Shown here: positions 25,536 to 57,500 of the stretch, one piece after another
How positions within the stretch are numbered: position 1 is the stretch's first letter
Layout: each line of letters starts with the position of its first letter
Assembly (NCBI GenBank): GCA_018105865.1
Contig: CM030851.1
Location: forward strand, 2,223,281 to 2,287,280
From: Metaphire vulgaris
Lineage: Eukaryota; Annelida; Clitellata; Crassiclitellata; Megascolecidae
Reading direction: 5' to 3'
DNA length: 64,000 bases
Program-made: the position numbers and the translations under genes
The notes under the pieces: model-generated
Database searches by the model: none
The model's input: only the letters and a program-made list of their open reading frames with translations
Told to the model about the DNA's origin: nothing

Positions 25536-25540
25536 TAGAA

Positions 25541-31480: not shown

Positions 31481-31484
31481 AATG

Positions 31485-32122: not shown

Positions 32123-32174
32123 ATGTTTAAAGCTAATCTGCTTTTCATTTTTCTGCTACAAATAGATTTATATG
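32123..32174 (+). CDS. Gene B exon 1, signal peptide
   Basis: ATG in the context CAACAATG, then a Lys and a hydrophobic run LLFIFLL, ending phase 1 before the consensus donor G|GTGAGT. The counterpart of this exon for gene C is not found in the right arm. It would fall at or beyond the N gap. Confidence 0.7.
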
Positions 32175-35100
32175 GTGAGTATGTATATAAACCCATTTGA
32201 CTTACGAAAGGCTCCTACAACAACGTTGATGTAAATAAATTCTCGACTAGGCGCGATTAGACAGTTCATTCGCAACTGAGGCCCCCAGTGACGTGTTTAA
32301 AACTCTAAATTAAAGAATATGATTATATAAACTGCATACTCTTCACAATTTGATGACTTGGTCATATTATGGAAATTAACAAGACGTCGACTTAGGCCTT
32401 AATTATAGCGGTTGCTACAATAGAAGACCTATAGTAGACCTTTAGTAGACCTGGGGAAGTCATCATAAAGCGTAAGCAAGTGGTACGGGACCTCGGAGTG
32501 ATCCTCGGTGAGAACTTAACCATGGCTTATCACATCAGTAAGATGTTCTCGAGCAGCTTTTCTCAACTGCGTCAGTTACGATCTATCTTGGACTCGCTCA
32601 CGCCCGAGACTACTAAAACTCTGATCCATGCTTTCGTCTCTTCGCGTCTGGACTACTGCAACAGTCTACTGGCACTTATCACCGAGCATCAAGTACAGTA
32701 AAACGGTTGCAATTAGTACAGAATGCGGCAGCACACTTGGTCACCCGGACGACAAGGCGGCATCATATTACGTCAACACTCGAAGATCTCCACTGGCTTC
32801 TTGTCAAGGATCGTATTCGGTTCAAGACAATAGCAATAGTGGACAAATATATCCCGGCGAAGGCACCTCAATATCTAAGAAAAGACTGCCAGATACTTCG
32901 AGACTATAACCGGAATCGATCGATCACCACTAGGTCAATCACAACCCGAACTCTGAGAGTTCCTCGAACGAACACCAAAATCGGAGACCGCTCATTCGGA
33001 GCACTGGGTCCAGCCCTCTGGGACGTCTTACTATCATCGCTACGAGATGAAACTCTATCACGTCCGATATTTCTAAATCGCCTTAAAACCTATATTTTTG
33101 AACAATCAGCCGAGGCGCATTAGGTTTAATCGCGCCTTTGAATGTTAAAATGAAATGAAATGAAATTTATCTCGATGCCTCATTTATGGATGAGCTAATC
33201 GAGTGAGCTCAAGTGCTAGAAAGAATTGACGTGCAGAGGCAGAGGTTTTGAATCCTGAACTGACAGATTGGTAGGCTAATAATTAGACATCCATATTATC
33301 AACTTGCAAAGATTATGCAGCTTATATAAATAATATAATCATATTTGACAAATTATACTTGATAATTATATTTTAGGCACGTAATCAAAATATTTGGCGC
33401 GAAGCTAGTAGAGTTGTAACAACGTTGGACGATAGAGCAGGAAATCGCTGGTTCGAGACCCGTACGAGACCTAAGGTCGATTCAGTCTTACATCCAAGAG
33501 GGCGGTGGTAAAAATGAGGAGCAGTGGTCAGAGTTAGGAAATACCACTGGTCGATGGTGCAGAAGGTATCGGGTTCGATCTCCGAAGGAGCCCAAAGGTC
33601 AACTCAACCTTATTCGCTAGAGGGCGTTGGTAAAGTGAGGAGCAGCGTTAAGCTGCGAAGGTAAAAACGTGGGTCTAGGGAAGCTAATGGCAACCTACCC
33701 CAGATTAATGGCTTATACCACCCACGTCGCTGATTGCCCAGGCCGGAGATAAGCGCCGGAACCCAACGCTCGGACTCGAGTACGGGACCTACCTACCATT
33801 ACCTACCGACACCTCTTCAGTAAATAAATCAGTCTCCACTGGCCATCACTCCACAAACTATCCGAAAACTACCTAAAACTATTCTTTTCAAGAAATCCTA
33901 TGGCGAAATCTTTACTACAGGTCTGAACTCTATTCGCCGCAAATCTTGCTATCATCCTCCATAAAATACTTTGCTGCGACTGCTTCTGCGACTGCGACTG
34001 AATCCTTCTGCTAACCGGATCTACAACTTTGATCATCACGGACTACGGATTATGGACCATGGATTTACCCAGATTGAGCGCTCGAATAAGTTGGTGCATT
34101 GCGCTAATTTTTCGAGCAACGCTATAGAAATTTCGTTTCACTTACTTACTTAAAATGCTGCGGTAAGTCAAACAGGTAGGCTATGCGATGCACTAGCCCC
34201 GTATCCGTGGTATTACACGCATGGCTGAGGGCTATAGCAACGGAGATCAGCGCCGCCCTATGAGCCAGTGAGGCTCCGGAGGGTCTTTGACTTTGACTTT
34301 CATATTACTACGACTGTAGTAAAGAGACCCGTAGGCGCATAGTAATTGTAAACAGCAGTAAGAAACGACAAAATTCTTATCTATGTTATAATTATGGTCT
34401 CGACAGTCTATACGATTAGGGATGCACTGATGATGATGAATCATATTATCAGATTGTGCTTTGAATGTATGAACGTCCTGGTTCTAGTTATGTTATCAAA
34501 TTGCATGTTGTCCGTTATTCACTTATATGTTGCATTAACGCAACAGCTTTTGATTCATTTCAGGTTTTTGCCAACCAAATCCTTCCTTCCTGTCTGTTCC
34601 AAAAAGCGCAATCGTCAAAATTCGTGCAAATGTGTCACTCGAATGCGTCGTCAATTCAAGGAATACTGTTTTCTGGGAATTTATCAAAAATTCTACTGTC
34701 AATAGGATATACTTCGAAAGAAACATCACTGAACAAGTGAAATCAAAATACAGGATCAATAACGAAGGCAGTGGACAGCATGTCCTCGTAATAGATTCCG
34801 TCGACCATAAACATGCTGGAAGATATATCTGCCAAGAATTCCCGTCCAACTCAAAAGCAACTGCGGAATTAACTGTCATAGGTAACTCGTTGCTAAAATG
34901 AGATTATCCGCTAATTCTGTATAGGTATATATTTATTTATAAGTGTAGATATGTGCCCACATATATTTAGCATTTTCTTTCCCATAAATAATAAATCAGA
35001 ACATGCAAGCATTTATCATTAGATAAAAAAAACTTTATAGAGCAATTGTAATAGACGGTGAAAACATATGGAAAGAAGAAGAATAAATGTAAATATCAAT

Positions 35101-37754
35101 AAACTTAAATAATATAGTAAACGCATATTTCCTTAGCTAGTGATATCGTTGCTGAATCACGAAAGTGCTATTTCCAAGAAGATTATAGGTTAGGTCAAAC
35201 AATTAGACATCAAAGACAGAGATTGTATAAATTTTACAGCGAGGATTTTTTATTTGAAGATTCTGATCCAGTGTGTGGAATGAATGTGACTAATATGGCA
35301 AAAGACCAAACCATTTGGTTATGGTGTGAGATCAATTCAACGGGATTCCTGATTCCACAAATGAAATGGACAAAAGCCAACGACGCACTTATAAATAGCA
35401 CAACGCAGAACACGGCAAGCGATAGATTAACAACAACAACGACGTCATTCGTCCGTCTACAATTACATCTTCAAGATAACAATGCAATGGGAAGAATTAT
35501 AGTCAAATGTGCGACTTCATTTGTATGGAAGAACGGCACAACAGTTACCCATTACGAGCACGTATGGAATCATACTCTGTCTTGTAAGTATAAATGAATT
35601 TACCAACAATTCTGAAGCCACTGTTCTGAAGCTAAAGTTGAGCTGATTGTTGACTCAAAAGCGTATGTACACAATCAAACTTAAGACATTTATACAATAA
35701 CTTATAAGTGGGCCCACGTTTTTTCCACAATCAACTACTCAAAAACGTGTCAGACTTAATGAATTTGACAACCTTCCGTTAATATAGTTCTGCTTTCTTT
35801 GCTTTGAAATCTATCGTTTGTCAACCGACAAACTTGCCAGCAATTCTAGAATTTATATCAAACTTTTGTACAAAACTTTTCCTAGTTGAGCCAATGTTCT
35901 TGGGTGACAAGCCGAGAACGTTATCATCTATGGGGAGCAATCCCATCAGTACGTTTATCTGAGCAGACCAAAGGGTTCACCAGCAAAACGACCAGTAGGC
36001 CTATGGCATGAGTTAAAGTTTGTTTCTCATAGTCTGCTGATACACATCACTAGGTTTATACCGCATACAGGCAGTGAAACAAATTCTAATGAAAGCTGAA
36101 TTTATCACAAATAACATCGAATTTCGTGATGATCAGTTTTCTTTTCTATGAAAGCATCCAGCAATTACTCTTTTATGCTTCTGACCAAGGTATAATAAAT
36201 CTATACATATTGTAGCAACGTGTATGTATACAGTATATGCATATAAAATACGAAATAGACCTTTGTCTAAATACCAATAATTGTGAAATAATCCTGTTCT
36301 CTGACATCCTTTAAGAACAATCTTAAGACTTATTTGCTTGGTAAATCTTATTCTCTTCTGCCTTAGATTGTTTTTCATTTAATTTTATACTAATGACTGT
36401 TATTTTATTTATTTTTATTGGACTATGTAATGTGCCCTTGCTCCTGACATTTTGGTATTTATTTTTATTGGACTCTCCCAACCTCTTTCTCTCTCCCAAC
36501 CCCCCTTCCCTCTCCCCAAACCTCTCCCAATCGCCCCAGGCCCCAACCCATACCCGCTCCGCCTACCCCACATGCCCAAAACCCTCGTTCCCATTCCCTC
36601 TCATCATCCCTCTCCCAACCCCCCCGTTTCCTCTCACCATCCCTTTCCCAATCGCCCCGGCCCCAACCCATCACCGCTCCGCCCTACTCCAACGGCCCCA
36701 AACCCCGTTCCCAAACCTACGGCCACAAACCCCGTTCTCAAACCTACACAACGCTGCTCCGAAAACCCGTACAACCACTTTCCTCCTCCCAAACCTCCCT
36801 TCCCTCTCCCAATGCCCTGCCTTCCGTTATCATATATATTTATTCCTTCCTAGCCTCAATAGCTATTTTTTTAAATTTAACCCCTGAAATGGGGATTAAA
36901 TTTTCAGACGCCGTCACCGTACTGGGGATTTAATTTTTGGAAAAGCGTTCTTCAGAAATGATTGCTGTAAAGTTTTTAATTTGCTATATCTCAGGCTATA
37001 TAGGAGCTAAAAAAATGAGATTTGCACCATTGTTTAGATTGTTTATTCCTCTTTCTAACCGTCCGTGCAAAACAAAAACATTTGGGGTAGAGTCCACTTT
37101 ATGGCCTTCAATATCATCCTCTCCCAAAAACATTTAAGGGCCCCTAGCAAAATATTTTCAGTGGTAACCCCACTTTGGTCAGCGGCAAAGTTGCAAAAGG
37201 ATGTCAGAGGAACAAAATAAACCAAAAAGTTTGAAAATCGGTAGATATTTGGCAAAGATCTATCAATTCTAACTCGATGACCCCAATGTTTGAACATATG
37301 TATTATCGGTGAATTTCGCCAAAGTTTTGAATTCTGAGTTTCCTATTTTTTTGAATTTGCTATATCTCAGGCTATAAAAGAGCTAAGAAGATGCGGTTTG
37401 CACCATTGTTTGGCTTTTTTATTCCTCTTTCTAACCCTCTGTGCAAAACAAAAAAAGTCCAGCGTTCACGAGCTTTCCGACAATCAAGTGAGAATGAGTA
37501 GCAGGCTGTTGCTCGACGTGAAAAGCACCACAGCAAACAAGAGAATCAAGCACTGCATGTCGTTCGACACTGCCAAATCAGTACACTTACCTTGACTATC
37601 AGGTTTCAGAAAATTCATGCGAATGGGCGTCAACTCGGTTGAAAAAAAGGCGGCGAGTTAAGGACAATTAATTGCGCAAAATGCTATTGCATTTGCGCAA
37701 AATCGGGTGGTAAAACAGCCAATCTCTCCGTCATATTTGACGGGTAAACACCTA

Positions 37755-37797
<43 letters not shown>

Positions 37798-40700
37798 TAA
37801 TACAAGCCATGATGCATATTTACGAAGGTAGTAAATTTTCTGGCAAATTGTCAAATGTTGCACGATTTCGTCACTGTTAAATGCGATATTTGCTATTTTG
37901 GTGAAAACTTTGATACTTCTAGTCAAATATTTTCTTCCAAGCGTTGACATTAAGTAGACCTAACTACTAGCTAAGCTTGAAGTTCTATATGTTAATTTCT
38001 TTAATTATTGTTTAAATTACTGTTATTACTGCCTTGTTTAAGTTGCTTAATTACTGTAATTACTGCATTGTATAATTGCGGTATGTCAAATGTACGAGGA
38101 AGAAATAAACTCTTTCATTCATTATAGGTATAATTGGTTGAATAGGTTGAATAGGTATTTGAGTTTTGTTTGTTTGTTTTATTTAAAGTGTGTGTTTTAT
38201 TAGTTTATTATTAGTTTATTATTGTCTATCTTTTTGGTTTTTATTTGATGCTGTGCTTGTCACGAAATAAAGATTATTATTATTATATTCTGAGGCTATG
38301 AATTGATTAATTATTGCTACGGCAAAATTGCCCTTGAATTCTAAAAGCTGGCTAAAAATGTTTCTTTACAGTGACCACTGATAAAGATGCAACTTCTGAA
38401 ACAGTTTCGGTTTCATATACTCAAAAAGCTTTTGGTACGTGTAATAAAACGATATTCCGATATAGAAAGCTTTTCTTAGTTTGCCTGTCAAATAAAATGT
38501 ATAAGATATAACATTTTACATATTTTCAACATTCAATTTATGATACAATAATTTTCAAATAAATTCTAAATCTACTTATTAAAGCTTGCCACGTCCTTCT
38601 ACTTAATGTAGCTACGCCTCTGTCACGAGTATGAAGAGATAGTTTGAAATTGAGGCCATATCTTGTCTATGACCACATTGACTGAATAAGCAGGTATGGG
38701 TAGGGAATTAGTAAATATCTATGTTTGACAATCCAAAGTATTTGATGCAAGACGGGGTCTCTCCTTTAGAAAAGCTATCTACTACAAACATTTATCTTTA
38801 AATCGAGGAAACAAGCAGGCTGTGGGAAAGTTTAGGAAAATATTCTACTTATTTTTACATATGGCCACGTTGTCGTTGAAACTCGAGTCTCTACGACATG
38901 TAGACCTCCAGCGGTGGTCTGTAAAAAGCAAGGCACTTTTTCTAATATTTGTGCTTGTAAGATAGAGCTCCTGAAAAGGGTGAGAGAAAGAGGAGAGGAA
39001 AAAATAACCATGTTAAAATTAATATAAATAGAAGGCTTAAGAGATGGATAGACAGACAACATTTTCTTTTGTACCCTCAAAATGTTGGAGGCTTTTGAAA
39101 GTCTAACCTCAATGCAGCAAGGCAGACAATATTTTGGACTTTTAGAATGCTTCAATTTTTAAGAGCAATCTATCGTAATCTTTAAAACTCTTGGATTTTT
39201 TGCATTAAATAATGTGTGCATAAAGAAAACCTTCTTGTTATTGTTGTAGCTACAGCTGATCCCAGCTCACTCCAATTGGAAGCCTGGATCATTCTTGTAG
39301 TTGGCGGTTCAATAGTTATCATAATTCTCAGCATCATGTACATTGTCTTTAAATGCAGAAAGAAAAGTGAGTCTTTCTAGAGTTCTGTCTCTGCTAATCT
39401 GCTCGTTTCGTTTATCTTTAACTTGCCGGTGTGTGCAAATAAGTGTCATATGCAACACAGCAGCCTTTATAGAGGGGAGGTGGTTCTAAACCCTTGCAGC
39501 ACTGCCAAACTGACTATTGTATATGCTTACTTCAGTCAGTTTACAGTCGCCAGTTACCTTATGCTGGTACATTTTAATCTAAACTCTCTCAGATTGAAAA
39601 TTGGCTTTTACAATATGCTTCAAATGCATCCTGTTATCGAATTCAGCGAGATTTTTGTCACAATTGTATCTAACGTGGTTCGAATTTCTATATAGTTTCG
39701 CAGTAATTCGCATTACAATTCAGAGAATAAAAAGTGACAATTCTTTGATTTTACGCATTAGACCACTGACTTAATGAGCTATATCAATAAAGGTGTGTGA
39801 TAAACTAATGAGTACTTCATAAAAGCTGTGTTACAATTACTGTACTTTCTCAATCAAAGTGAATCACTAACTTTGAACTAAAACAGCGAAGCATATAAAA
39901 TTTAAAAGAACAATCACCAAACCCACACAGTAAAAATATATTTTTAATGCCTTTTTAAGAAAGTGAGAACCTTGGGACAAAGGTATGTCTATTTACGGTG
40001 AGAGACAAAAGTTGATATAAAATAGTTAATTAATGGGTATTCATGCGACTCTTATTGAAAATGATGGTAACAGTGGTGTTGGTGCTTCAGATGGTGTTGC
40101 TAGTGGTGTTGCTGACGATGACGATGACAGATGATAGCTAAAAGACCCGCTAGAAATCGTTGAAAAACCTAAACTTCGTTTACTTTAAAATGCAATGTCT
40201 CTTGTTGTTATTATTATTATTATTATTACGAACATTTCTATAGCGCAAATTATCGCAAAGCAGCAAATGCACTCATGTCAGTTGCGAACCAGATCAATCA
40301 AACAAGAATGTCTTCAGTTGTTTCCTAAAAGATAACAGCGTCATGGTTGAGTCAGAGGAACGCAATGTTGCTGGCAGACTGTTCCAAACAACCGGGCCAG
40401 CAACGGCCAGGTTGCGGTCACCAAAGCCTGTCCGAGTTCGAGGCACTGCAAGTGTGCTGGTCAAGGCGGAGCGCAGATGCGACCGACCAGGCAACTTAGC
40501 CGTCGAGCAGAACATATCAGTTAGATATGACGGAGCAGAGCTGTGTTGGGCCTTGAACAGGATGGTCCCGAGTTTAAAAGTCACGCGTTGACCGACCGGG
40601 AGCCAGTGGAGCTCCCGTAGTAATGGTGTGATATGATCGAACTTCCCTCTCTGGAACACCAAGCGTGCAGCTGCATTCTGGACGAGTTGAAGTTTCTGTA

Positions 40701-43700
40701 TCAGATGGTCACTGATGCCATAAAGGATGCTGTTGCAGTAGTCGAGTCTGCTGCTGATGAATGCTTGAGCCAGCATCCTAGTTGCGTCAGGTGTCAGCGA
40801 GTTCCTCACTGCCCGCAGCTGGCGAAGCTGGAAGAACGACTTCCTGCAAACTGATGCAACGTGGTTGGCCATTGTCAGTTGACTATCAATTAACACCCGA
40901 GGTTATTGACCACTGTAGCACATTCGATGGTGGCGTCAGGACGGCGTAAGGCATTTATTGTGATCTTTTGAATCTGTTGTCTTGTGCCCAGCCAGATAAT
41001 TTGTGTCTTATCTTCATTCAGCTTTAGGCAGTTCTCCGCCATCCAGCCCCGGATTCTAGTGATACAGTCACTTAACTGGTCCATTAATGCTTGCTCTCCA
41101 CTCGCATTCCCGCTGCTGTAGATTTGGATGTCATCAGCGTATCCGTGCCCAGACATTCCACAGGCAGCAATGATGTTGAACACATCTGACACGTACAGAA
41201 GGAACAGGACAGGTCCGCATACTGAGCCCTGAGGTACTCCATAGGGGAGGTGCAAGGTTTCCGATAGAAGACCACGGTAAGCCACCTGTTGTGAGCGGTC
41301 AGTGAGAAATGATGATAGCCAGCCGAGCGCCGCCCCCGTGATGCCAAATTTGTACTGTAGGCGCCGTAGAAGGATCTCGTGATCCACGCAGTCGAAGGCT
41401 GCGCTGAGATCGAGGAGGCCAAGCAATGTGACCTGTTTCCGGTCTATAGCACCAAGGATGTCAGATAGCACCTTTAGCAGCGCCGTTTCGGTGCTATGGT
41501 GACGTCTATAGGCGGACTGGAGTCTTGGCATCAGTCCCTCGCCCTCGATGAATTCTATGACGCGCCCAATGACAACCAACAATGTTGTAGGAGGACCGTG
41601 CAAGAATTCGTCAACACAATCGAAAAATAATCCGGGTGTCTTGCATCAAAATTCTCTGCCCTATGATGGTAAAATTGTTGATATTGGAGATGTTCTGTCA
41701 TGCGTATTCATGTGATGTTTAGCATCAGCGAAACAGACTCAGGGCTTTAACGATAATGATTTGCACTGTAATTAGTCAAATTAACGTTGTCTGCAGCTGT
41801 CGTTAGCCTTTCTGCAGTTGCCTAAATTATAATTGATTATTATCTCGCTCATAATTGAAGTTCTATTTTTGTATATGACAACTGTGCTTCAGAAATACTG
41901 TCCCAAATGTAACGCAAGCATAGCTTTCTAGGCTGAAAGCGGATCTACAATGATGCAGCAGTTACTTATTTCTTACCACTTGAAATAACTTGACCTACCA
42001 TTGGCTGATCTGAAATTTCATTGAATAATAATTATTGTCCAGCGACAAAACGAATTCAAGTATAAAACACGAGTGACTTGTATAATTTAATTTTGAGCAA
42101 CATTCACTTAACTGACGCGAGAACAGCACTGGGTTATTAAATTATGCCTAGAGTAATTATAGTGGTTTTATATAGGTTAACGCACCCTAAACAACTTGAA
42201 ATCATTTATTTATTTATTTATTCAGACCGATTCATTAAGCACAGTGGCAGTGTTAGAGTCCACGACAAGAGCGCTTCACACATACTAATTACGGGTAACT
42301 CGATCAAAATAAGCGAGTTTTTAGGTTCTTGGTAAAAAGTCCAGCAAAGTCTATGCTAGTTACATTATCCGGCAGAGTATTAGTCAGTATACTGTAGGAT
42401 TCCCTTGTGTACATGACCTTTTCCTCATCTTCACAGTCTTGGACGGTGGAGAAACGAGGAGTTTTCCCTGATGACTGGACCTCAGGTGTGATCTATGATC
42501 ATTTACCGTCGTTCTCTGTACAAGTGAGGCGAGGTAGCTCGGGCAGGTCGGGTCGTGTAGCGCGCGAAAAGTAACCAACAAGGTTTGCATGTAATCCTCT
42601 CGGGGACCCGGAGCCAATGAAGTCGGTCTCTGAGAAGCGTAGTTACGTGATCACTCCGGCGACATCCATAGACTACTCGCGCAGCAAGGTTCAAGACCAG
42701 TTGGAGTCAGTTCGTTCTAGCAGCTGTAATCTAGAGTAGCATGCTGTTACAAAAATCAAGTCTCGACAGCACGAAGGCACGGACGAATTGAATCGCTCCA
42801 GTGACTAGTGGATAACTCCGGACAGACTCAATCCTCCATAGCTGGTAGTAGCAGCGGCCAATCAGCTCCGGTATGTGTGGCTCGAACGTCAGTGTCTCAT
42901 TGAGCCGTATTCCCAGGAGCCATAAGGACGCAGAGGGGGCAATGTCCAGTCCACCCACCTTGAGGGATTCACGATTTATCAGGTTCTGTCTCCTCGGTGC
43001 GCATAGCCATAGGAATTCTGTCCTCGCTGGATTTAGGGCCAGATGAATCTCCTCTGACAACCACTATGCATCCCTTGAACCGCTTTCGCAGTGCGTCCAT
43101 ATAAACCGGCAGGCATGAAGAGTATATTTGCCCATCATCGACGTAAGTGTGCGACATCAAGTCAGCATCTTTCATGATTAGTAGACTATTATTATATTAA
43201 TTATTATTTCAGGCAACCACACATTGACTTAACCAATATAATTTTCGGTACAGACAGCGACATATGACAGGATGACAAGCAACTTAATATTAGAAAATCT
43301 AAACTATTTTGAGTATATTCACATAAATATTAACTAGAATGTGACCCTGCGGTCTCTGTGCCTCTGAGGTAATGCCTAGTCCTACATATGATTGATAATG
43401 AAAATCTACCCCAGTCTGTGCACATAGAACATCTGATGCCCGCAAAATAATAGCTTGCATATGATTATCATGTTACCTTATACACGAAAGATTGAGTAAC
43501 TGAAGTTAGGGTCTACATCTTAGGCTCCAATTTGTCTATGAACTTCAATTTTCAAAATACACTGATATATGATATGTAGTGCACTGTTTGACTTGTGTGA
43601 CGTCTCTTATATTAATATTTAGAGGCTTCCCGGCATTAGAGTCGCTTCGTAAGAAAATGAGACTTTCGTCTTCGCAATGAACTGAGCGTGGGAGTAAGGG

Positions 43701-46700
43701 GTGAGGCTAGAGTAGAGAAAGACAACCCATTCCAGAGAGAGGGTCTTGTCATTTTAAGGGGCAGGCTGTCACAGGACTATGTAGACTCATGTGCGGCAGT
43801 GCCATAAAAGAAAACGAAAATGTTGTTAAGCGACTGAATTATTTTGGTAAAAATTGATTTGATGATTGATCTGTTTTGATATCAGATAATTTTAATCTTG
43901 TTCTGTGAACATTCTAGTAGAGTAAATCACATGCCTTGCGCTGTGGTTGTTCTAACTGTTTCGTATGAAATTAGGTTCAAAGTCGAGCAATGCTAGAGAA
44001 GGCGCAAACTCACCAGTACAAAACGGCAATGCCATTTATGCAGAAGTTAAGAAAAAGACAAAGAAGAAAGGTACGCATCCAAGTTTTCTTCACTTAAATC
44101 TCTAGATTTTGTGGATCTGTTACCAAAAATCACTGACATTTCCCAATTGAAATTTAAGTCGTAAGTTAAAAGAAATTGCACAATATTAGATCCAAATGAC
44201 AGAAATTGTCTAGTTCGTGAATCGGTCTGTTTACAGCTTAGTACATTCGCGAGGATGTATGAGGCTCGGAAAAATTAAATGTTGACAGATATGTGATTAA
44301 TGCCTCAACATGTGCGCATTGCAAGTTCATTACAGATTTTTAGAAAAAGATTAAAAACCCTTCTTTTTGACCTGGCCTATCCACCATAGACTGTCACCCG
44401 TTTGCTTAGCCGGATACCCTCGATTTGACCTGGATCTTTAATTATTTGGATTTGGTGTGCCATCAGTTGATGCTCCTGTGCATTATGAAGTGGCGCTATA
44501 GAAGTTTAAGATTAGATTAGATTAGATAGATAATAAATTATTTGTCATATTTGCTTTATGACCGAAACTTTTCTTTTCTGAGCAAACTAATTTGTCCAAT
44601 TAGGCAAAGCCTTCAATTATATTTATTTTTATGTTCGTCTTTATCCTTCCTGTCCGTTAATTTAATAAATGCACGCAAAAGCTTTCAAATAAACATTGCA
44701 AGATATGCTTCCTGTTTTCTTTCCTGACAATTGCGATTACAAACCAATTTCACATCAATTTTCAGTCCGTTTTTACTGCATGATGTTTACAATTGTCTGC
44801 TAACATCAAGAGGTCAGTGGCCTTTTCTTTCTCTTTGAATGGCCACGCACTAAGCAAATTGCTGGTCGCTTGTAATTCCAAAATGAAAAAGAAACATTCA
44901 CTTAAATCAAAAATATTAAGGTGGCTCCTAGTTTTCCTTTTACATGTCTCCTTAATAGTTGTAGGCCTATGTTTTTGCAATCCATGATGTTAAAATATGA
45001 TGATGATGACGATGATGATGATGATGATGATAATGATCTTGATGATAACGGCGACAACGACGACAACAACGACGATGATGATAATGATGACAGGAGGTAG
45101 ATTTAATGAACTCGCACTCAGTATGCGAAAGATTGGACAAGGTACACTGTACAGTGTACACCTTCTGTCTTCAGCAGAGACGACTCCACATAGGGGCTCT
45201 GGGGACCCGTGCCGCTTACTGAATACCTCCCTCCCAGCGGCCCATACTTAAATGCATTCATTCTAAGCAACTACAGTGTAGACTAGTCCATGTTTATGAA
45301 AAATATGTGCCCCATGCTCATAAGTTTACACTCCAACGGCCCCCACTTGCAAAATCCAGGAGCCGCCACTAGTCTTCAGCTAAGGTGTTGTTCAACTTAC
45401 CGGATTATATGCTTTTCATTTTAGAGACCAGGAGTAACACTGAAATGAAAATCTTATCCAACACTGCACAAACCAAAGGCCAAGCGGTAGGCTAACACTG
45501 TAAATTATTTCAGTTATTTTAAAGCCTGGGGCGGGAAGTTAGCAGAGTGGTAATAACGTTGGACGATGGAGCGGGTTCGCGGGTTCGAGACTCACAGGAG
45601 TCCTAAGGTCGATTCAACCTTGCCCGCTAGAGGGCGGTGGTAAACAGAAGAGCAATGGCAAAACTCTGCGATAAGTCAAACAGGTACGCCACGCGATGCA
45701 CTAGCCCCGTATCCATGGTATTGCAAGCCTTGCCTTTACTTTAATTTTTGACTTTTTGATCTTAGGACTTCAATTTTGTGGGTTGAAACACCAGAAGTAA
45801 GAGAGATAGAGAGAGAGATGATTTAATAGAAACATACAAAACAATTACATGGAAAGTAGATGTGCCATACGAACGATTCTTTACATTAGCACGCTTCAGC
45901 AGCTCAAGAAGCCACAGATGCAAATTTTCAAAAAAAATTGTGGGACCAAGGAAGAAGAACGCTTTTAGTGAAAAGGTTATGGAGAAAATGGAGCAGTTTG
46001 AACCAAAAGGCAGTAACTGTCGAAACAATAAATACGTTCAAACGTCATCTTGGAAATTGACTGGACTTAATTAACACCCAAGCCGCGACACACATGGCCA
46101 AAGAAAGGAAAGGTCCATGGGCGAGCATTTCTACACCGTTGGCTCCGACGTATCTTATGGACTATGGAGTGTGGCGATGATGATGACGATGATGACGACG
46201 ATGATGATGATGATCAGGGACGTCATTTGGGGGTCAGGGGGGCATTTGCCCCCTGATTTTGAGGAAAAAATTTTTTTCTTGTGTTATTTAGTATTTAGTT
46301 TTTTACATGTCCTAAAGGAGCGCCTGATATGATGTATATGATGTGGAGTAGTCTAGTCTGAAAAGTAACTAACCGTTATAAACGGCTGACGAGCAAAAAA
46401 AGAGGTCGTCAACTTTTTCGCAAACTTGTAACTTGTCAGGTCAAAAGTGTTTTGCCCCCCCTGAAAAACAGTGAAATGACGTCTCTGATGATGATCTTGA
46501 AAAACTGGGTTATTAAGTGTTGAGAGTAATTATAGTGGGTTTCACACAGGCTAAAGCCTCTAAAATCACTTGAAATCATGTTGTATTATGTTCGCACTCG
46601 ATATGGCGAAGCTGTTTTGCAGTAGGGTGTAGACTATCAGTATTTTGCTTTCACTCTGCATAATTCGCCTACTTTTCACATCGAGCTATGCTCGTATCTC

Positions 46701-47147
46701 AGATTCAATGACATGATTAACCGCTGCCTCGCATTGCATATGTCTCTACTAATTATAGTTATCGAATAGCAGCACATTCATGGTGGTTGCCTAATGTGAT
46801 ATATTGGCACCTCATATCTCAAAGATGGATTAAATTATTATTACAAATCTCACATCGGCTTCGATGGTAATCTGTTATGCACTCGTGGTCTAATTTATTT
46901 GAATGTCAAACATCAGGAAGTAACCATCAAAAGTTGTTTCTTCCTGTTTTAGTGCATCGTTGGTGAGGACGGAACAGTGTACATGGACTTCAGCGGAGCT
47001 AAGCAAACCGAAACAAAGAAAGTTCAGTCAAACCCACCGCAGTTCAGTCAAGTGGAAGTGTACGCCTGCATTGATCATACACTTTTTGCTCCTCCGCATC
47101 CACCAAACAGCGCTAACGCACCAAATGGAAAGATGAACAAGAAATAG
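32123..47147 (+). CDS. Ig receptor gene B: two Ig domains, TM segment, tail with three YxxPhi motifs
   Basis: Eight exons fit in frame: 32123-32174 (signal peptide MFKANLLFIFLLQIDLY), 34564-34881 (Ig 1), 35260-35583 (Ig 2), 38372-38434 (stalk), 39250-39366 (TM), 43975-44070, 45425-45486 and 46953-47147 (tail and stop). The total is 1227 nt, 408 residues. All borders are phase 1 except the last, which is phase 0. Ig 1 shows SLECVV, VFWEF and HAGRYIC. Ig 2 shows LWCEI, MKWTK and VKCAT. Several N-glycosylation sequons (NVS, NST, NIT, NGT, NHT) mark the ectodomain. The TM helix is GGSIVIIILSIMYIVF. The tail carries IYAEV, VYMDF and VYACI among Lys-rich segments, candidate SH2-docking tyrosines. 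None matches a strict ITIM. It is one arm of the inverted duplication with gene C. Introns 5 to 7 are swollen by retrotransposons. Surface recognition is inferred; the ligand is unknown. Confidence 0.8.
32480..33130 (+). pseudogene. CR1-like 3' end (left arm copy)
   Basis: The frame encodes the ORF2 C-terminus: SQLRQLRSILDSLTPETTKT, RLDYCNSLLA, a one-base shift, then QLVQNAAAHLVTRTTRRHHI, FKTIAIVDKYI and GPALWDVL. It ends at ...FEQSAEAH, followed by TTTAATCGCGCC and an (AATGA)n tail at 33150-33170. It is inside intron 1 of gene B. The same insertion is present inverted at 56860-57480, so it predates the duplication. Confidence 0.85.
33395..34300 (+). repeat. tRNA-derived SINE cluster (left arm)
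   Basis: At least two tRNA-like heads lie in tandem: 33402-33480 with the B box GGTTCGAGACC, and about 33530-33600 with GGTTCGATCTCC. They are followed by AGAGGGCGTTGGTAAAGTGA-type bodies. Near 33971-34150 there is a degenerate open frame. At 34180-34290 comes the terminal block GATGCACTAGCCCCGTATCC...CCGCCCTATGAGCC. The family recurs at 5085, 45530 and in the right arm. Confidence 0.7.
36440..37745. repeat. Left-arm-specific insertion with duplicated segment and C-rich tract
   Basis: This block of about 1.3 kb is missing from the corresponding position in the right arm (about 53540), so it was inserted, or deleted from the other arm, after duplication. It starts with a repeat of TATTTATTTTTATTGGACT, has a CCCCAAACC-rich stretch (36475-36815), and carries a roughly 105-bp direct repeat (36975-37080 and 37350-37456, sharing TTGCTATATCTCAGGCTATA). 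The Pro-rich open frames in it are low-complexity translations. The mobile family is unknown. Confidence 0.6.
37756..37802. repeat. (AAT)n microsatellite
   Basis: About fifteen AAT units. The right-arm equivalent at 53440-53505 is longer, so the tract length has drifted since duplication. Confidence 0.85.
38372..39366 (+). CDS. Gene B stalk and transmembrane exons
   Basis: The stalk exon 38372-38434 (63 nt) lies between TTTCTTTACAG and G|GTACGT. The TM exon 39250-39366 (117 nt) lies between TTGTTGTAG and A|GTGAGT. It encodes LEAWIILVVGGSIVIIILSI then MYIVFKCRKK. Both keep phase 1. The gene C exons have identical lengths. Among the changes, the residue after the helix differs (Cys in B, Tyr in C). 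Confidence 0.8.
40205..41603 (-). pseudogene. CR1/L2-like retrotransposon, 5' truncated, in gene B intron
   Basis: The minus-strand ORF2 C-terminal half covers RT motifs LQSAYRRHHSTETALLKVL, LDLSAAFDCVDHEILLRRL, PYGVPQGSVCGPVLFLLYVS and the active site YADDIQIYS, then KLNEDKTQIIWLG. A frameshift near 40890 separates it from the second part (RQLRAVRNSLTPDATRM, RLDYCNSILYG, LQLVQNAAARLV, LHWLPVGQRV). The 3' end CGCTATAGAAATGTTCGTAA and an (AAT)n tail lie at 40203-40245. The 5' half, with the endonuclease, is missing. One frameshift in a mostly intact frame suggests a fairly young insertion. It is not present in the right arm. Confidence 0.85.
42380..43175 (-). pseudogene. CR1-like ORF2 C-terminal fragments, frameshifted
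   Basis: Minus-strand frames read THTYVDDGQIYSSCLPVY (RT active-site region with a VDD variant), EIHLALNPARTEFLWLC, FVLSRLDFCNSMLL, NLAARVVYGCRRSDHVTTLL then LHWLRVPERITCK. This is the normal order of a CR1-like RT and thumb, but in three or more frames. It is an older insertion than the neighbour at 40205-41603 and also lies in the gene B intron. Confidence 0.75.
43975..47147 (+). CDS. Gene B cytoplasmic tail exons
   Basis: The three exons are 43975-44070, 45425-45486 and 46953-47147. Phase continuity (1, 1, 0) requires the small 62-nt exon, which was too short to see as an open frame and was found by matching phase and splice signals (TTTTAG acceptor, GCG|GTAGGC donor). Tail tyrosines sit in NAIYAEVKKK, GTVYMDFSG and VEVYACIDH. 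Lys-rich stretches and a Pro-rich end (APPHPPNSANAP) follow. No counterpart exists in the right arm, where gene C uses a different tail. Confidence 0.7.
44330..44530 (+). pseudogene. Retrotransposon 3' end with (GATTA)n tail
   Basis: The frame LQIFRKRLKTLLFDLAYPP is the last stretch of an L2/CR1-like ORF2. It is followed by GTGGCGCTATAGAAGTTTAAG and a GATTAGATTAGATTAGATAG tail. A similar GATTA tail lies at 61240-61270. Confidence 0.7.
44995..45095. repeat. (GAT)n/(GAC)n microsatellite
   Basis: An imperfect ATGATGATG and ACGACGACA run. The Met/Thr-rich open frame is repeat translation. Confidence 0.85.
45525..45735 (+). repeat. tRNA-derived SINE
   Basis: The head is GGGCGGGAAGTTAGCAGAGT...GGTAATAACGTTGGACGATG with A-box-like TTAGCAGAGTGG and B-box GGTTCGAGACTC. 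The body is AGGTCGATTCAACCTTGCCC and GCTAGAGGGCGGTGGTAAAC. The 3' block is CGATGCACTAGCCCCGTATC. It is probably the most complete copy of this family in the window. It lies in the last gene B intron. Confidence 0.8.
45815..46075 (+). pseudogene. CR1-like ORF2 C-terminal fragment
   Basis: The frame reads DLIETYKTITWKVDVPYERF, FTLARFSSSRSHRCKFSK and RKKNAFSEKVMEKMEQF, ending KYVQTSSWKLTGLN. This is the C-terminal layout (ETYK, FF, RGH, RKN.FS, N.FK) of CR1-family ORF2. It differs in subfamily from the other fragments here. Confidence 0.7.
46215..46487. mobile_element. hAT MITE (CAGGGACGTCATTTG ends), copy 1
   Basis: CAGGGACGTCATTTGGGGGT mirrors GTGAAATGACGTCTCTG ending at 46487. The 8-bp ATGATGAT flanks both sides (46207-46214, 46488-46495) within a GAT repeat. 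273 bp. It matches the copy at 60669-60898 in most of its interior (AAAAATTTTTTTCTTGTGTT, TGACAAGC/CGAGCAAAAAAAG, TGTAACTTGTCAGGTC). Confidence 0.85.
46530..46600 (+). repeat. SINE 3' end fragment
   Basis: GTGGGTTTCACACAGGCTAA and CCTCTAAAATCACTTGAAAT match the SINE 3' segment of 826-970, here with no ATT tail. Confidence 0.55.
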
Positions 47148-47740: not shown

Positions 47741-47750
47741 TAATTATCAG

Positions 47751-48650: not shown

Positions 48651-48661
48651 ATAATTATCAG

Positions 48662-49239
48662 GACGCAGTCATTTGTGATATCTGGAACATACGATCCTAT
48701 GCAGAATACGTCGTCTTAATACTTATCCCAATTCTTTCGTCACGATAATCTGGAAGCCCGGTCAATCTTCACAATTTTATTCTGATGACAGTTACTTAGG
48801 CCTATATTCAAGCTGCTCGAAATAATACTGTTGTGACATGATTAGACAACCTCAGAGCTGTCACCTCATTAACTTACCAGCCTCATTTGCTCAAACTCCG
48901 TAAAAGAAGTGAATATAAAATTTAATGATATCTTATCGCTGTGAAATCCTGAAGTTGCCTTGTTTAAATGTACGCAAAGGAATGATCTGTACTGTCAGTC
49001 ATAAAGGCTGCTCCTTTATCTGCATTCTTTCGAGTATAATCCTCAGAATTATCTTGCTTGCATGCGACACCAGATCAACGCTAGCAGCCTAATAATGCTG
49101 CTTCAGTGTAGCAGATTGAAAGACACTGTATCTCAGTTTTAGATTAATTATTAACTGAGTCGGGTTATATCGACATCTGGCTCAATGTTATTATCCTGTG
49201 TTAACCGGAAGACTATCTGTTCAGAAAAGCATACAATCT
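48662..49239. other. Intergenic stretch between genes B and C
   Basis: No gene or repeat family is recognised here. Confidence 0.4.
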
Positions 49240-49580
49240 CGAATACGAATATAATAAAGTGTTTGAGCTGAATTTTCATTGTACTTCGTCTATTATAATT
49301 GAATATAATTTAGACCTTGATAATAATGCCATACTACAGTATAATATTGTAATGCATATTTTCTCTTCTTTTAATATATTGTATTGCAAAATATATTATC
49401 GATTTATCAACAATAAAAATGTACAACAAAAGAAATTATCGTGTTCTGAAGATCATACAACCTGAAATATGAATAAAATAAAGATTTTGAGCTGAATTTT
49501 CATTGAACGTCGTATAGTCTAATTATTCCTGTCTTTGATATCATGACTCTACAATACAATATTGTAATGTATCCATCCAA
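49240..49580 (+). repeat. Direct duplication carrying AATAAA signals
   Basis: A segment at about 49245-49360 (TTTGAGCTGAATTTTCATTG, then TATTATAATTG, then ATACTACAGTATAATATTGT) recurs at about 49470-49580 (same 20-mer, then TCTACAATACAATATTGTAATG). Each copy begins with an AATAAA hexamer (49253-49258 and about 49471). They may be duplicated transcript ends on the + strand, possibly of gene B. This is uncertain because the gene B stop is 2 kb away. Confidence 0.5.
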
Positions 49581-49916
49581 TTGACAATGATTGCCTACTT
49601 AAATGATAAATGATATTGAGGCGCAAGTAAAAATGTTAAACCATCTGTTTGTCTATCGGTTTCTAAGACTCTGCATATTCTGTCATTGAGATTTCTTAAA
49701 GATAGCCAAATATGCCATCAAATCATTACTTTTTATGGCATTATACTGTGACCAGCTGTATTGCGATCAATTGTCCCTACGACCGATTGTCCATGTAATA
49801 AAAGTGGAATGACCAAATGCCGTGTTGCAAAAATGATCTATGACCAATGGCTTGGCGAAGCTGTATTTTGGTCTATGCAACCTCTGCTTACAGCCGATCG
49901 ACTAGCTAAAACACTG

Positions 49917-49991
49917 ATGCTAAATGTTTTAATAGGAAAATGCTTATAACAATAATTGTTATAAGCATTTTCCTATTAAAACATTTAGCAT
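49917..49991. repeat. Perfect 75-bp palindrome (37-bp arms, 1-nt centre)
   Basis: ATGCTAAATGTTTTAATAGG and onward from 49917 is exactly complemented from 49991 back to 49955, with a single A at 49954 between the arms. A one-base loop is too small for a microRNA hairpin; as DNA it could extrude as a cruciform. No target duplication is evident. Confidence 0.9.
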
Positions 49992-50014
49992 GGAAATAAA
50001 AATTATTTCCTCTG

Positions 50015-50165
50015 AGTCCTTTGGGGCGGAAGATGGCAGAGTGGGTTACGTGCTGGAGCGTCAGGCTGATGGAGCGGGTTCAAGCCCCGTTAGTGCCTCT
50101 AGTGGCTTTCACACAGGCAGTCCAATAGTGAAAATGCCTTCTAAGCCACTTTAAATCATGCTAAG
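50015..50165 (+). repeat. SINE with tRNA-Leu/Ser-like head
   Basis: The A-box region GATGGCAGAGTGGGTTACGT and B box GGGTTCAAGCCCC are well preserved, 33 bases apart. The 3' side of the acceptor stem does not pair. The head continues directly into GTGGCTTTCACACAGGCAGT and CTAAGCCACTTTAAATCATG, the SINE 3' segment. This copy links the tRNA head with the tail found alone elsewhere. Confidence 0.75.
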
Positions 50166-50900
50166 TTTATAATTAATTAAGTGGGCCTATAATCTACTGT
50201 TTTCCTTTTTATTTGTTTTTTGCCAGCGAATAGCTATCAACAATCAAGAGATTCTCTAATGCTAGAAAGAGAAATTATCGCTAGTTTCTCAAACGTTGCT
50301 GAAATTGTTCTCGAAAAAATTCAAAGTATACAAAACATTTCATATATTTAAAAGTATATCCCCGAGCGAAATTCAAATCTAGTGCCATAATTATCTAATA
50401 GTTTTCTATATAACGGAAAGTATTGCCAATAATATTCGTGGCCGATTGATCTTTTACATCACAAGCTGAATAATAATCTAATATTTGATAGCTCACTGCA
50501 ATGTAAATGTCCGTTTATTCATTATTATTGATTGGCATATTGTTGTACAGTATACATAGTCATACACAGATCACAATGGTTTAAAAACGTTAGCATTATC
50601 CAGAACAGTTTATAAAACAGAATGATCAACGCCACCTTGTTTTCGGTACTATAATGTATTTGTAGTTCTCGGATTAGGATTTTTAAATAAGAAGACAGTT
50701 TCAGAATAAAAGAAAATTACAAATATGATTCGTTTCCAGTGGAAATATTCTAAACAACGAATATGTTTTGATATTGCTACAAACAGGTCTCTGGCTAGAA
50801 AATTCTGAGTAAACTTATCATCGTTGGAACACATCCTCGTTGGAAGTCGTCGTTGGAAGTTCTCATTCAGCGAAATTTTGATAGTTGGGTAGTTGGTGGT
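50166..50900. other. 3' flank of gene C
   Basis: On the minus strand this follows the gene C stop. Just after the stop, CTTCCAACGA is repeated three times within 40 bases (50820-50860). A possible AATAAA signal on the minus strand lies at 50514-50519 (TTTATT on the + strand). No other gene is seen. Confidence 0.4.
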
Positions 50901-51427
50901 CTACTTCTTCGTGTCTTTCTTTTTCTTCACAATTTGCAATTCGCAATATGTTTCTGACTGCACAGCTGGCGATGGTCGATTTGCCAAAGTTTCGTAGTCG
51001 TCGATGGTATAGTATTCTTGTCTCTCGTCTTCCAAAACTGCAGAAGGCAGAGGCTTTGATTTTGGTTCATCTTGCTTCAACAAATTCAGTTCACAATATG
51101 TTTCCGACTGCATGCTTGCTGATGGTCGATTCGCCAACGTTTCGTAGGTTTCAATGGTTCGAGTTGATTTTGTTTCGGACTTCTCATGTTCCGTCAAATT
51201 CAGTTCGCAATAGGTGTCTGACTGCATGGACGTCGTAGGTCGATTTGCAAATGTTTCGTACGCCTCAACGTTCTTAGTTCCGCGTTCGACTTCTTTTCTT
51301 TGTGTCTTTGGAAGTCTCTTTCCTTCCGCTTGCCTCCTCGTGTTTTCTGTATTATCACTCGACCCAGCGTTAAGTGGCAAAGCTGCTGACGATGTGTTTC
51401 CCTTCTTTTCTATAATAATAGTTTCCG
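50901..51427 (-). CDS. Gene C cytoplasmic exon with three ITAM-like modules
   Basis: The modules lie at 51260-51201 (AYETF, 12 residues, YCEL), 51146-51087 (TYETL, 12, YCEL) and 50996-50937 (DYETL, 12, YCEL). The x12 linkers are nearly the same (ANRPxxxxQSxT). Each repeat is separated by Lys/Glu-rich spacers, so the exon grew by internal duplication of one ITAM unit. A further YYTI precedes module 3. The N-terminal part is Asn/Ser/Thr-rich and the C-terminus is KKKKDTKK. Nothing like it is seen in genes A or B. Confidence 0.85.
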
Positions 51428-53445
51428 CTATGTTCATTTAATTATTAATAGAAGTACACTGGTAACGGATTTCGCATAGAGTGATGCCGATGTCACAAAA
51501 TCGAATAATTAATTAATTGGCAGACTTATTCAGCACCTTTATGGGAAGAAGTACTCCTGTCTATTGCTGTAAGCACTAACGACTAATTAGCTTATATTGC
51601 ACATGCATTTAGCATAGAAATCAATTGTGGCTTTCCCGATAGGTGCTGTTGGTTTATCGAACATTAATTTTAGGATGGACATATTATTAAAACTGTGTTT
51701 GGGGAAGCGTTGAAATAATTGTTAGCTTAATTGGCCCTTCAAAAATGAACGGACAATAGATAGATTATAAAAGCGCTTTCCTTGTCACTTTAAGTTATGC
51801 CACATTTAAATGGCTCGCCTTAATTTACAGTACCAGTGAGAAATTCGTAAATGTCAAAGCGCCTAGGTTAGATAATAGATATGAAGGCAGCGAAATGCAG
51901 TGTGGATTGGCAACAGCAACAGATAAATCGCATTCGTGCTGCATGTGACACTTACTAGGAAATGCAGGTGAGTTAAGGTGAGTTAACGAAATGAACAGTT
52001 TTGCAAAGACAGAACTGTAGACAGACTCACTTTTCTTTCTGTATTGAAAGACAATGTACAGGATGCTGAGAATTATGATAACTATTGAACCGCCAACAAC
52101 AGGAATGATCCAGGCTTCCAATTGGGGTGGGCTGGGATCAGCTTTAGCTACAACAACAATAAGGACAAGGTTTTCTTTATACTCACATTATTTAATGTAA
52201 AAAATCCAAGAGTTTTAAAGATTATGATAGTTTGCTCTTAAAAATGGAAGCATTCCAGAAATCCAAAAGATTGTCTGCCCTGCTGTATTGAGGTTAGGCA
52301 TTGAGGTTAGGTTAACCTCAATGCAGTTAGGCTTTCAAAAGACTCCAACAATTTCAGGGTACAAAAGAAAATGTTGTCTGCCCATCCATCCATCTCTTAA
52401 GCCTTCTATTTATATTCATTTTAGCAAGGTTATTTTTTTCTCTCCTCTTTCTCTCACCCTTTTCAGGAGCTCTATCTTACAGCACAAATATTAGAAAAAG
52501 TGCCTTACTTTTTACAGACCATAGCTGGAGCTCTAAATGTCGTAGAGACTCGAGTTTCAACGACAACGTGGCCATATGTAAAAATAAGTAGAATATTGTC
52601 CTAAACATTCCCACAGCCTGCTTGTTTCCTAGGTTTAAGAATAATGTTTGTAGTAGATAGCCTTTCCAAAGCAGTGACCCTGTCTTCCATCAAATACTTT
52701 GGATTGTCAAACATAAATATTTATTAATTCCCTACACATACCTGCTTATTCAGTCAATGTGGTCATAGACAAGCAATGACCTCAATTTCAAACTATCTCA
52801 TGACAGAAGCGTAGCTACATTAAGTAGAAGGACGTGGCAAGCTTTAATAAGTACATTTAGAATTTATTTGAAAATTATTGTATCATACAATGAATGTTGA
52901 AAATATGTAAAATGTTATATTTTATACATTTTATTTGACAGGAAAACTAAGAAAAGCTTTCTATATCGGAATATCGTTTTATTATACGTACCAAAAGCTT
53001 TTTGAGTATGTGAAACCGAAACTGTTTCAGAAGTTGCATCTTTATGAGTGGTCACTGTAAAAAAACATTTTTAGCCAGCTTTTAGAATTCAAGGGCAATT
53101 TTGCCGTAGCAATAATTAATCAATTCATAGCCTCAAAATATAATGAATGAAGGAGTTTATTTCTAATTATACAATGCAGTAATTACAGTAATTAAGCAAT
53201 TTAAACAATGCAGTAATTACAGTAATTTAAACAATAATTAAAGAAATTAACATATAGAACTTCAAGCTTAGCTAGTAGTTAGGCCTACATAATGTCAACG
53301 CTTGGAAGAAAATATTTGACTAGAAGTATCAAAGTTTTCACCAAAATAGCAAATATCGCATTTAACAGAGACGAAATCGTGCAACATTTGACAATTTGCC
53401 AGAAAATTTACTACCTTGTAAATATGCATCATGGCTTGTATTATA

Positions 53446-53504
<59 letters not shown>

Positions 53505-55426
53505 ACTGACACTTTCTTGTGCGCCACATGACCAAAATGTCAGGCGCAAGGGCACATTACATAGTCCAATAAAAATAAATAAAATAACAGTCATCAGTAT
53601 AAAATTAACTGAAAAACAATCTAAGGCAGAAGAGAATAAAATTTTCTAAACAAATAAGTCTTAAGATTTTTCTTAAAGGATGTCAGAGAACAGGATCATT
53701 TCACAATTATGGGTATTTAGCCAAAGGTCTATTTCATATTTTAAATGCATATACTGTATACACACACGTTGCTACAATATGTATAGATTTATTATACTTT
53801 GGTCAGAAGCATAAAAGAGTAATTGCTGAATACTTTCATAGAAAAAAACTGATCATCACGAAATTCGATGTGCTTTGTGATAAATTCAGCTTTCATTAGA
53901 ATTTGTTTCACTGCCTGTATGCGGTAGCGACCTAGTGATGTGTATCAGCAGACTATGAGAAACAAATTTTAGCTCATGCCATAGGCCTACTGGTCGTTTT
54001 GCTGGTGAACCCTTTGGTCTGCTCAGATAAACGTACTGATGGGGTTGGTCCCCTCAGTTGATAACGTTCTCGGCTTGTCACCCAAGAACATTGGCTCAAC
54101 TAGGGAAAGGTCTGTACAAAAGTGTGATATAAATTCTAGAATTGCTGACAAGTTCGTCGGTTGACAAACGATAGATTTCAAAGCAAAGAAAGCAGAACTA
54201 TATTAACGGAAGGTTGTCAAATTCATTAAGTCTGACACGTTTTTGAGTAGTTGATTGTGGAAAAAACGTGGGCCCACTTATAAGTTATTGTATAGATGTC
54301 TTAAGTTTGATTGTGTACATACGCTTTTGAGTCAACAATCAGCTCAACTTTAGCTTCAGAACAGTGGCTTCAGAATTGTTGGTAAATTCATTTATACTTA
54401 CAAGACAGAGTATGATTCCATACGTGCTCGTAATGGGTAACTGTTGTGCCGTTCTTCCATACAAATGAAGTCGTACATTTGATTGTAGTTCTTCCTATTG
54501 CGTTGTTATCTTGAGGATGTAATTGTAGACGGACGAATGACGTCGTTGTTGTTGTTAATCTATCGCTTGCCGTGTTCTGCGTTGTGCTATTTATAGGTGC
54601 GTCGTTGCCTTTCGTCCATTTCATTTGAGGAATCAGGAATCCCGTTGAATTGATCTCACACAATAACGAAATGGTTTGGTCGTTTGTTATATTAGTCACA
54701 TTCATTCCACACACTGGATCAGAATCTTCAAATAAAAAATCCTCGCTGTAAAATTTATGCAATCTCTGTCTTTGATGTCCAATTGCTTGACCTAACCTCT
54801 AATCTTCTTGGAAATAGCACTTTCGTGATTCAGCAAAGATATCACTAGCTAAGGAAATATGCGTTTACTATATTATTTAAGTTTATTGATATTTACATTT
54901 ATTCTTCCTCTTTCCATATCTTTTCACCGTCTATTACAACTGCTCTATAAACTTTTCTATCTAATGATAAATGCTTGCATGTTCTGATTTATTATTTATG
55001 GGAAAGAAAATGCTAAATATATGTGGGCACATATATACACTTATACATAAATATATACCATATACCTATACAGCATTAGCGCAGAATCTCTTTTTAGCAA
55101 CGAGTTACCTATGACAGTTAATTCCGCAGTTGCTTTTTCGTTGGACGGGAATTCTTGACAGATATATCTTCCAGCATGTTTATGGTCGACGGATTCTATT
55201 ACGAGGACATGTTGTCCACTGCCTTCGTTATTGATCCTGTATTGTGATTTCATTTGCTCGGCGATTTTTCTTTCGGAGTATATCCGATTGCCAGTAGAAT
55301 TATTGATAAATTCCCAGAAAACAGTATTCGTTGAATTGACGACGCATTCGAGTGACACATTTGCACGAATTTTGACGATTGCGCTTTCTGGAACAGACAG
55401 AAACGAAGAATTTGGTTGGCAAAAAC
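50901..55426 (-). CDS. Ig receptor gene C: two Ig domains, TM segment, triple ITAM-like tail
   Basis: Minus-strand exons are 55426-55109 (Ig 1, 318 nt), 54725-54402 (Ig 2, 324), 53054-52992 (stalk, 63), 52147-52031 (TM, 117) and about 51427-50901 (tail and stop, 527). All introns are phase 1. With one base from a signal exon the frame closes at 450 codons. No signal exon is found. In gene B it lies upstream of the CR1 insertion, which here meets the N gap. Lengths of the first four exons equal those of gene B, as do the Ig landmarks (SLECVV, VFWEF, HAGRYIC; LLCEI, MKWTK, IKCTT). The tail carries three YxxL/F-x12-YxxL modules, each with acidic residues before the first Tyr. ITAMs recruit tandem-SH2 kinases of the Syk type once phosphorylated, so an activating role is likely but inferred. 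The tail acceptor could be 51428 or about 20 bases later. Confidence 0.8.
53440..53505. repeat. (ATT)n microsatellite in gene C intron
   Basis: About 20 ATT units, the right-arm partner of 37756-37802. Poly-Ile and poly-Tyr open frames over it are artefacts. Confidence 0.9.
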
Positions 55427-57480: not shown

Positions 57481-57500
57481 ATCTTACTGATGTGATAAGC

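Follow-up and report, generated by a model that had tools for sequence, protein, structure and literature searches.

Among the closest described counterparts of the locus reported here are vertebrate receptor genes that lie as inverted neighbours. SIGLEC11 and SIGLEC16 are arranged head-to-head, about 9 kb apart, with a highly similar region of ~3 kb that includes the N-terminal exons (PMC5701461), and putative Xenopus ceacam pairs lie in opposite orientation and have converted ligand-binding exons (PMC5112662). In this study, two genes, B and C, were analyzed within a 64,000-nucleotide stretch of the genome of the annelid Metaphire vulgaris (assembly GCA_018105865.1, contig CM030851.1, positions 2,223,281 to 2,287,280 of the forward strand), hereafter the window, to which all coordinates refer. 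Read from the sequence, B and C have a common immunoglobulin (Ig) ectodomain, unlike tails, and intact reading frames and splice sites; the tail of B recurs on a diverged relative, and the ratio of nonsynonymous to synonymous divergence (dN/dS) is lowered between the tail modules of C. It is considered fairly probable that these genes are a tail-swapped receptor pair which arose by inverted duplication, and in which the tail of C was replaced by an exon with three modules resembling the immunoreceptor tyrosine-based activation motif (ITAM). With near-identical ectodomains, different signalling tails and linked genes, the locus is best read as paired-receptor-like, with a putative function.

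Like CEACAM1/CEACAM3 and the Xenopus ceacam genes, B and C combine matched Ig ectodomains with ITAM or ITAM-like motifs in the tail of one partner; this likeness is one of architecture, and a sequence relation to ceacam forms no part of it (PMC5112662). The other ceacam partner has an immunoreceptor tyrosine-based inhibitory or switch motif (ITIM or ITSM), whereas B has none in strict form, and conversion is confined there to the N exon, whereas the similarity of B and C includes introns (PMC5112662). With SIGLEC11/SIGLEC16 the locus shares the inverted neighbouring arrangement, the ectodomain exons being converted and under relaxed constraint in that pair; B and C are, however, tail-to-tail, and Siglec-16 uses an ITAM adaptor, while C has its own ITAMs (PMC5701461). 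The fester co-receptors (FcoR) of Botryllus likewise form a cluster of type I Ig receptors; their tails carry an ITIM, a hemITAM or a core tyrosine (Y-x-x-I/L/V), and every one of them has a fester-family gene as its partner (PMC12065747). They are composed of a V-type Ig, a sushi and two C2-type Ig domains, a composition that B and C, with two Ig domains and no sushi domain, do not have (PMC12065747). The Hydractinia Alr family, also clustered Ig receptors and with candidates that carry ITAM/ITIM motifs, is likened to the locus by description only (PMC11999971, PMC12065747). Oyster CgIgIT2 and a Halocynthia hemocyte protein with two ITAMs are, as C, non-vertebrate membrane ITAM proteins (PMC11999971, PMC5465252). 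CgIgIT2 combines five Ig domains with an ITAM, whereas C has only two such domains together with three modules and is thereby set apart from that type (PMC11999971), and neither protein is described, in the available parts of the sources, as part of a tail-swapped pair (PMC11999971, PMC5465252). Among the matches listed in a search of literature titles and abstracts, most subscription papers being beyond reach, there was no such pair outside vertebrates.

Exon structure and the inverted repeat

Gene B (forward strand, 32123..47147) has eight exons with GT/AG at every junction (Table 1), which give a 408-amino acid (aa) reading frame for a type I membrane protein composed, in order, of a signal peptide, two Ig domains, a short stalk, a transmembrane (TM) segment and a 117-residue tail. 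Gene C (reverse strand, 55426 to 50901) consists of the same four middle exons, all in phase 1-1 in both genes, and one long tail exon, its junctions also being GT/AG. The B ectodomain belongs to the Ig superfamily (Pfam Ig_3, 40.9 bits, cut-off 30; Ig_2, 32.4 bits, cut-off 27), a TM exon is present in both genes, and a sushi domain was absent from the B ectodomain in the Pfam listing at E<=1. When hydrophobic exons of phase 1-1 were sought throughout the window, the forward strand gave only the B TM exon (with two acceptors), and the reverse strand gave the C TM exon (with two donors) and three further candidates (7040-7213, 19966-20043 and 23005-23148). A sequence search of solved structures gave no match to the C ectodomain at E<=0.001, with Dscam coming nearest (E=0.0014). 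A structure model of Ig2 (predicted local distance difference test score, pLDDT, 65) had PD-L1 as its best Foldseek match (E=4.1e-4) and the sole one at E<=0.001, followed by many general Ig folds, and this is taken only as support for a predicted Ig fold; the Ig1 model (pLDDT 48) was left unused.

The four shared exons are 93–97% identical without any indel (Ig1 298/318, Ig2 308/324, stalk 61/63 and TM 109/117 identical nucleotides), and the equal lengths that the original prediction had given for them check out, together with phases and splice sites. Its placement of B and C in an inverted duplication is likewise borne out, since self-comparison gives an inverted repeat of ~5.5 kb, both arms of which, as well as the 12.5-kb loop between them, are free of N. 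The matched blocks are 32525-36456 and 53531-57500 (95%), 37753-38077 and 53165-53488 (97%), and 38282-39458 and 51936-53144 (88%), while the C arm contains no counterpart of the B-arm stretches 36457-37752 and 38078-38281. The similarity had been said to stop right after the TM exon; although the two tails are indeed unrelated, it tapers over a further 92–95 bp (74.7% identity) before it ends. The single C tail exon with three ITAM-like modules stands as described, with the 527-nt form and the 509-nt alternative both in phase.

Beyond the arm edge, comparison of B and C downstream DNA showed that the C intron matches over the first 95 bp only. A search for hidden homology further downstream of C gave three short matches (best 28 bp, E=0.038), which were taken as noise, and alternative splicing between the tails is ruled out because the B and C tail exons sit on opposite strands. 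Two further observations concern the introns. Read past its donor, the C TM exon continues into an open tail (51828-52030, reverse strand) in which VYSSV fits the ITIM pattern, a stop being present there in B; this segment is probably an intron, and an intron-retention form is possible. Inside B intron 5 there are reverse-transcriptase-like open reading frames (ORFs; 40294-41645, reverse strand), which we take to resemble a long interspersed nuclear element (LINE).

Table 1 Features of the Metaphire vulgaris window (positions within the window).
Feature	Positions	Strand	Basis
B exon 1, start codon and signal peptide (52 nt; encodes 18 residues)	32123..32174	+	frame and splice check
B exon 2, Ig1, 318 nt, phase 1-1	34564..34881	+	Pfam Ig_3 on joined B ectodomain (E=3e-10), with its best stretch here
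B exon 3, Ig2, 324 nt	35260..35583	+	Pfam Ig_2 (E=1.1e-07), with its best stretch here
B exon 4, stalk, 63 nt	38372..38434	+	exon and splice check against C
B exon 5, TM, 117 nt	39250..39366	+	exon check and hydrophobic-exon scan
B exon 6, tail with YAEV, 96 nt	43975..44070	+	aligned to P0001 YAEI
B exon 7, tail linker, 62 nt, phase 1 to 0	45425..45486	+	loose alignment to P0001
B exon 8, tail with YMDF and YACI, stop, 195 nt	46953..47147	+	51 aa aligned to P0001 at 51% identity, E=2e-12
C Ig1 exon, 318 nt	55109..55426	-	exon and splice check against B
C Ig2 exon, 324 nt	54402..54725	-	exon and splice check against B
C stalk exon, 63 nt	52992..53054	-	exon and splice check against B
C TM exon, 117 nt	52031..52147	-	exon check and hydrophobic-exon scan
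C tail exon, three ITAM modules and stop	50901..51427	-	acceptor 51427 (527 nt, as in the original prediction) or 51409 (509 nt)
B arm of inverted repeat	32525..39458	+	self-comparison
C arm of inverted repeat, ends at gap	51936..57500	-	self-comparison
100-N scaffold gap, on the side where the C first exon is expected	57501..57600	.	only N run in window
Gene A, tentative neighbour: distant Ig1-Ig2 paralogue	22421..24762	+	25% / 19% identity to B Ig1 / Ig2

Tails of B and C and a diverged relative

B was searched against 5.8 billion proteins, which gave 2687 candidates and a single match at E<=10, P0001 (E=1.8e-43), encoded on a 1653-base contig whose source, marked 'lgn', is taken to be an assembly of public reads. 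P0001 contains a partial Ig1, an Ig2, a third Ig domain that B and C lack, a TM segment and a tail. It has no introns on this short contig, whereas the B exons span 15 kb, and it is therefore probably a transcript. Its tail matches that of B at 33/85 residues (E=5e-14 as a single comparison); in the last exon the two share 26/52 residues, whereas 20000 shuffles of B never gave more than 14. Each of the three tyrosines in the B tail is aligned with a tyrosine of P0001 (YAEV, YMDF and YACI in B; YAEI, YQDF and YAYI in P0001), and the distance from YxDF to YAxI is 27 residues in both. The three small B tail exons, previously described as carrying isolated tyrosines, are in frame and constitute a conserved tail type common to P0001 rather than a chance set; this tail match rules out an origin as chance ORFs. 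Since P0001 carries a B-type tail, the joining of the ectodomain to the B tail is very likely real and old, and the B combination is probably the older one, with the C tail as the replacement.

Over the shared part, P0001 matches C at 84 and B at 79 of 195 residues, and of the 29 B/C differences that it covers 6 match C, 1 matches B and 22 match neither; judged by these counts, the C ectodomain is decaying no faster than that of B. In one alignment, the B/C stalk falls on the end of the third Ig domain of P0001, and this weakly suggests that the stalk may be a remnant of such a domain. A relic of P0001 Ig3 in the window was rejected, as a direct search gave no match better than E=1.0. Relatives were also sought in prokaryote genome contigs and viral contigs with two peptide patterns each, which yielded 120 and 79 pattern matches, respectively, and 0 relatives.

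The C tail contains three YxxF/L-x12-YxxL modules of the form YETF/LANRP-x7-TYCEL. Under the ITAM pattern YxxL/I-x(6-12)-YxxL/I, two are strict and one has F at the first +3 position, all with an x12 spacer; the ITAM of human Fc-gamma-RIIA likewise has a 12-residue spacer. Three modules of the loose pattern were reached in 1 of 20000 shuffled C tails (shuffle mean 0.03; P=5e-5), and the shuffles give P=0.00045 for the strict pattern. Between module copies (22 codons each), pairwise dN is 0.13–0.23 and dS 0.57–1.00 (dN/dS <0.4), so that the protein sequence of the modules has been held while silent sites changed. From the motif alone, C can fairly be inferred to be activating.

A motif scan ruled out strict ITAM, ITIM and ITSM in the B tail, in which position -2 is occupied by A, by T (at the site that has F at +3) and by E. 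The B tail sites also fit the YxxPhi uptake signal. Two of the three have the form YAx[V/I]; they thus carry Ala at pY+1, a residue conserved in the ITIMs of several SHP1-recruiting receptors, where it promotes SHP1 recruitment (PMC8631942), and the 27-residue spacing is near that of PD-1, whose sites Y223 and Y248 are 25 apart (PMC7078208). With the pY+1 Ala and the PD-1-like spacing, a phosphatase-docking B tail is plausible by analogy, and no more than that. The original prediction had proposed a paired-receptor system with B modulating or inhibitory: the architecture holds (near-identical two-Ig ectodomains, close opposite genes and unlike tyrosine tails), whereas an inhibitory B, unsupported by a strict ITIM or ITSM, is only plausible.

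Alternative explanations

Several results weigh against a tail-swapped pair. These are: (i) the signal-peptide exon of C was not identified in the window, the arm homology continuing to the 100-N gap; (ii) AATAAA or ATTAAA was not found within 1000 nt after the B stop; (iii) dN/dS of the shared part is about 0.9, so that constraint is weak; (iv) the absence of stops in the shared part is not significant (P=0.175); (v) the B tail has 0 matches to strict ITIM ([SIVLT]xYxx[LIV]) or ITSM (TxYxx[VI]); (vi) 0 of 420 candidates were found at E<=10 with the C tail alone as query, and 0 of 3220 at E<=1 with the whole of C; and (vii) among ORFs of at least 40 aa in the reversed window, taken without a tyrosine filter, 53/664 have at least one ITAM pattern and 21/664 at least three. 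Both of these nulls are weak, because the whole-C search also missed P0001, which the C ectodomain does match. The reversed-window counts mean that the ITAM pattern alone says little in tyrosine-rich frames; among ORFs of at least 40 aa with at most 8% tyrosine, the C tail alone has three modules in the window (622 ORFs), and none does in the reversed window (0/545).

It is possible, although unlikely, that B and C are recent paralogues of an ordinary kind in an Ig cluster with rapid turnover, that both are perhaps activating or adhesive, that they have no common ligand, and that the break of the duplication explains the tails. This would suit the shared part, in which 34 of 44 differing codons are replacements (NG86 dN 0.057, dS 0.063), a ratio indicating weak or diversifying selection. 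The Ig exons differ more than the flanking noncoding DNA (36/642 against 114/3285, Fisher P=0.013, uncorrected), and the binding parts may thus be diverging. Clustering of replacements is not claimed for Ig1, where a window of 30 residues holds 8/12 (scan P=0.06; P=0.17 for 20 residues), nor for Ig2 (P=0.77 and 0.25). The lack of a strict ITIM in B and the distant paralogue gene A close by also fit ordinary paralogy. On the other hand, the tyrosine motifs look conserved in both tails (in C between modules, in B in P0001), and the arms appear homogenised on the ectodomain side: the best change point of noncoding divergence lies at 38618, with 3.4% outside and 8.6% toward the tail (0/2000 permutations). 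This gradient is most simply explained by gene conversion of the ectodomain part, with uneven mutation as the alternative, and two copies are compared. The shared exons differ at 46/822 sites with 0 indels, against 192/4588 sites and 20 indel events in the noncoding blocks; 3.6 exon indels were expected at the noncoding rate (P=0.028), which is modest evidence that the reading frames are kept.

It is quite improbable that C is a partial or dying copy which lost its first exon in the duplication, its ITAM exon being a relic or derived from another gene. Apart from the missing signal-peptide exon and the near-neutral dN/dS, such decay would agree with the 6.4 kb right of the gap, which gave no clear match to B upstream DNA (30001-32524; best 30 bp, E=0.047). 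A tblastn search with the 18-residue product of the B first exon found itself and otherwise nothing better than E=0.53, with low power for so short a query. The gap, however, begins exactly where the C arm homology ends, the C frames are open and the splice sites intact, a polyA signal lies 381 nt past the C stop, C is slightly closer than B to P0001, and dN/dS is lowered between the ITAM modules. A LINE-like fragment, as we take it to be, adjoins the gap, and the rightward join may be wrong.

An assembly artefact, in which an allele or chimeric read was placed inverted, is very improbable: the inverted repeat is ~4% divergent and adjoins a scaffold gap, but its arms and loop are free of N, its divergence is graded rather than uniform, and unlike tails and one-arm unmatched stretches would not be expected of a fold-back read.

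Among the neighbouring features, a possible TM exon of gene A (24618-24762) ends in a stop, which would leave a short tail without tyrosine motifs, the exon ends being uncertain. A piece at 25540-25614 (forward strand), 52% identical to gene A Ig2 (E=0.001; E=3 by profile), is possibly a relic of another copy. ORFs at 30065-30755 (reverse strand) presumably resemble a hAT-type transposase.

Proposed mechanism and significance

For the tail-swapped pair, the following course may be proposed. An ancestral receptor with two or three Ig domains and a conserved three-tyrosine tail of the B/P0001 type would have been duplicated in inverted orientation, the duplication reaching just past the TM exon, after which copy C would have acquired a splice, again in phase 1, to an exon with three tandem ITAM-like modules; the splice from the C TM exon to the ITAM exon is a predicted one. 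B and C would bind the same or a similar ligand, and the phosphorylated ITAMs of C would recruit a Syk-type kinase and lead to activation. B may dock SH2 proteins, possibly with YAEV and YACI as sites for SHP-type phosphatases, or AP-2 for uptake at YxxPhi, and would thereby set a threshold for C or compete with it. The likeness of the ectodomains is probably maintained by conversion from arm to arm.

A more far-reaching proposal, which is held tentatively and with some doubt, is that this is a true paired-receptor locus in a non-vertebrate, in which an old phosphatase-docking B and a younger triple-ITAM C would read one ligand through conversion-matched ectodomains, convergent with SIGLEC11/16 and CEACAM1/3. 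Conversion-matched, tail-swapped pairs are a mark of vertebrate immune arms races, and the same gene layout elsewhere would suggest a recurrent design. P0001 gives this comparison a direction, as the non-ITAM tail appears to be the older one and activation would be the innovation here. The locus makes it testable whether animals without lymphocytes tune recognition by combining ITAM and other tails with one ectodomain.

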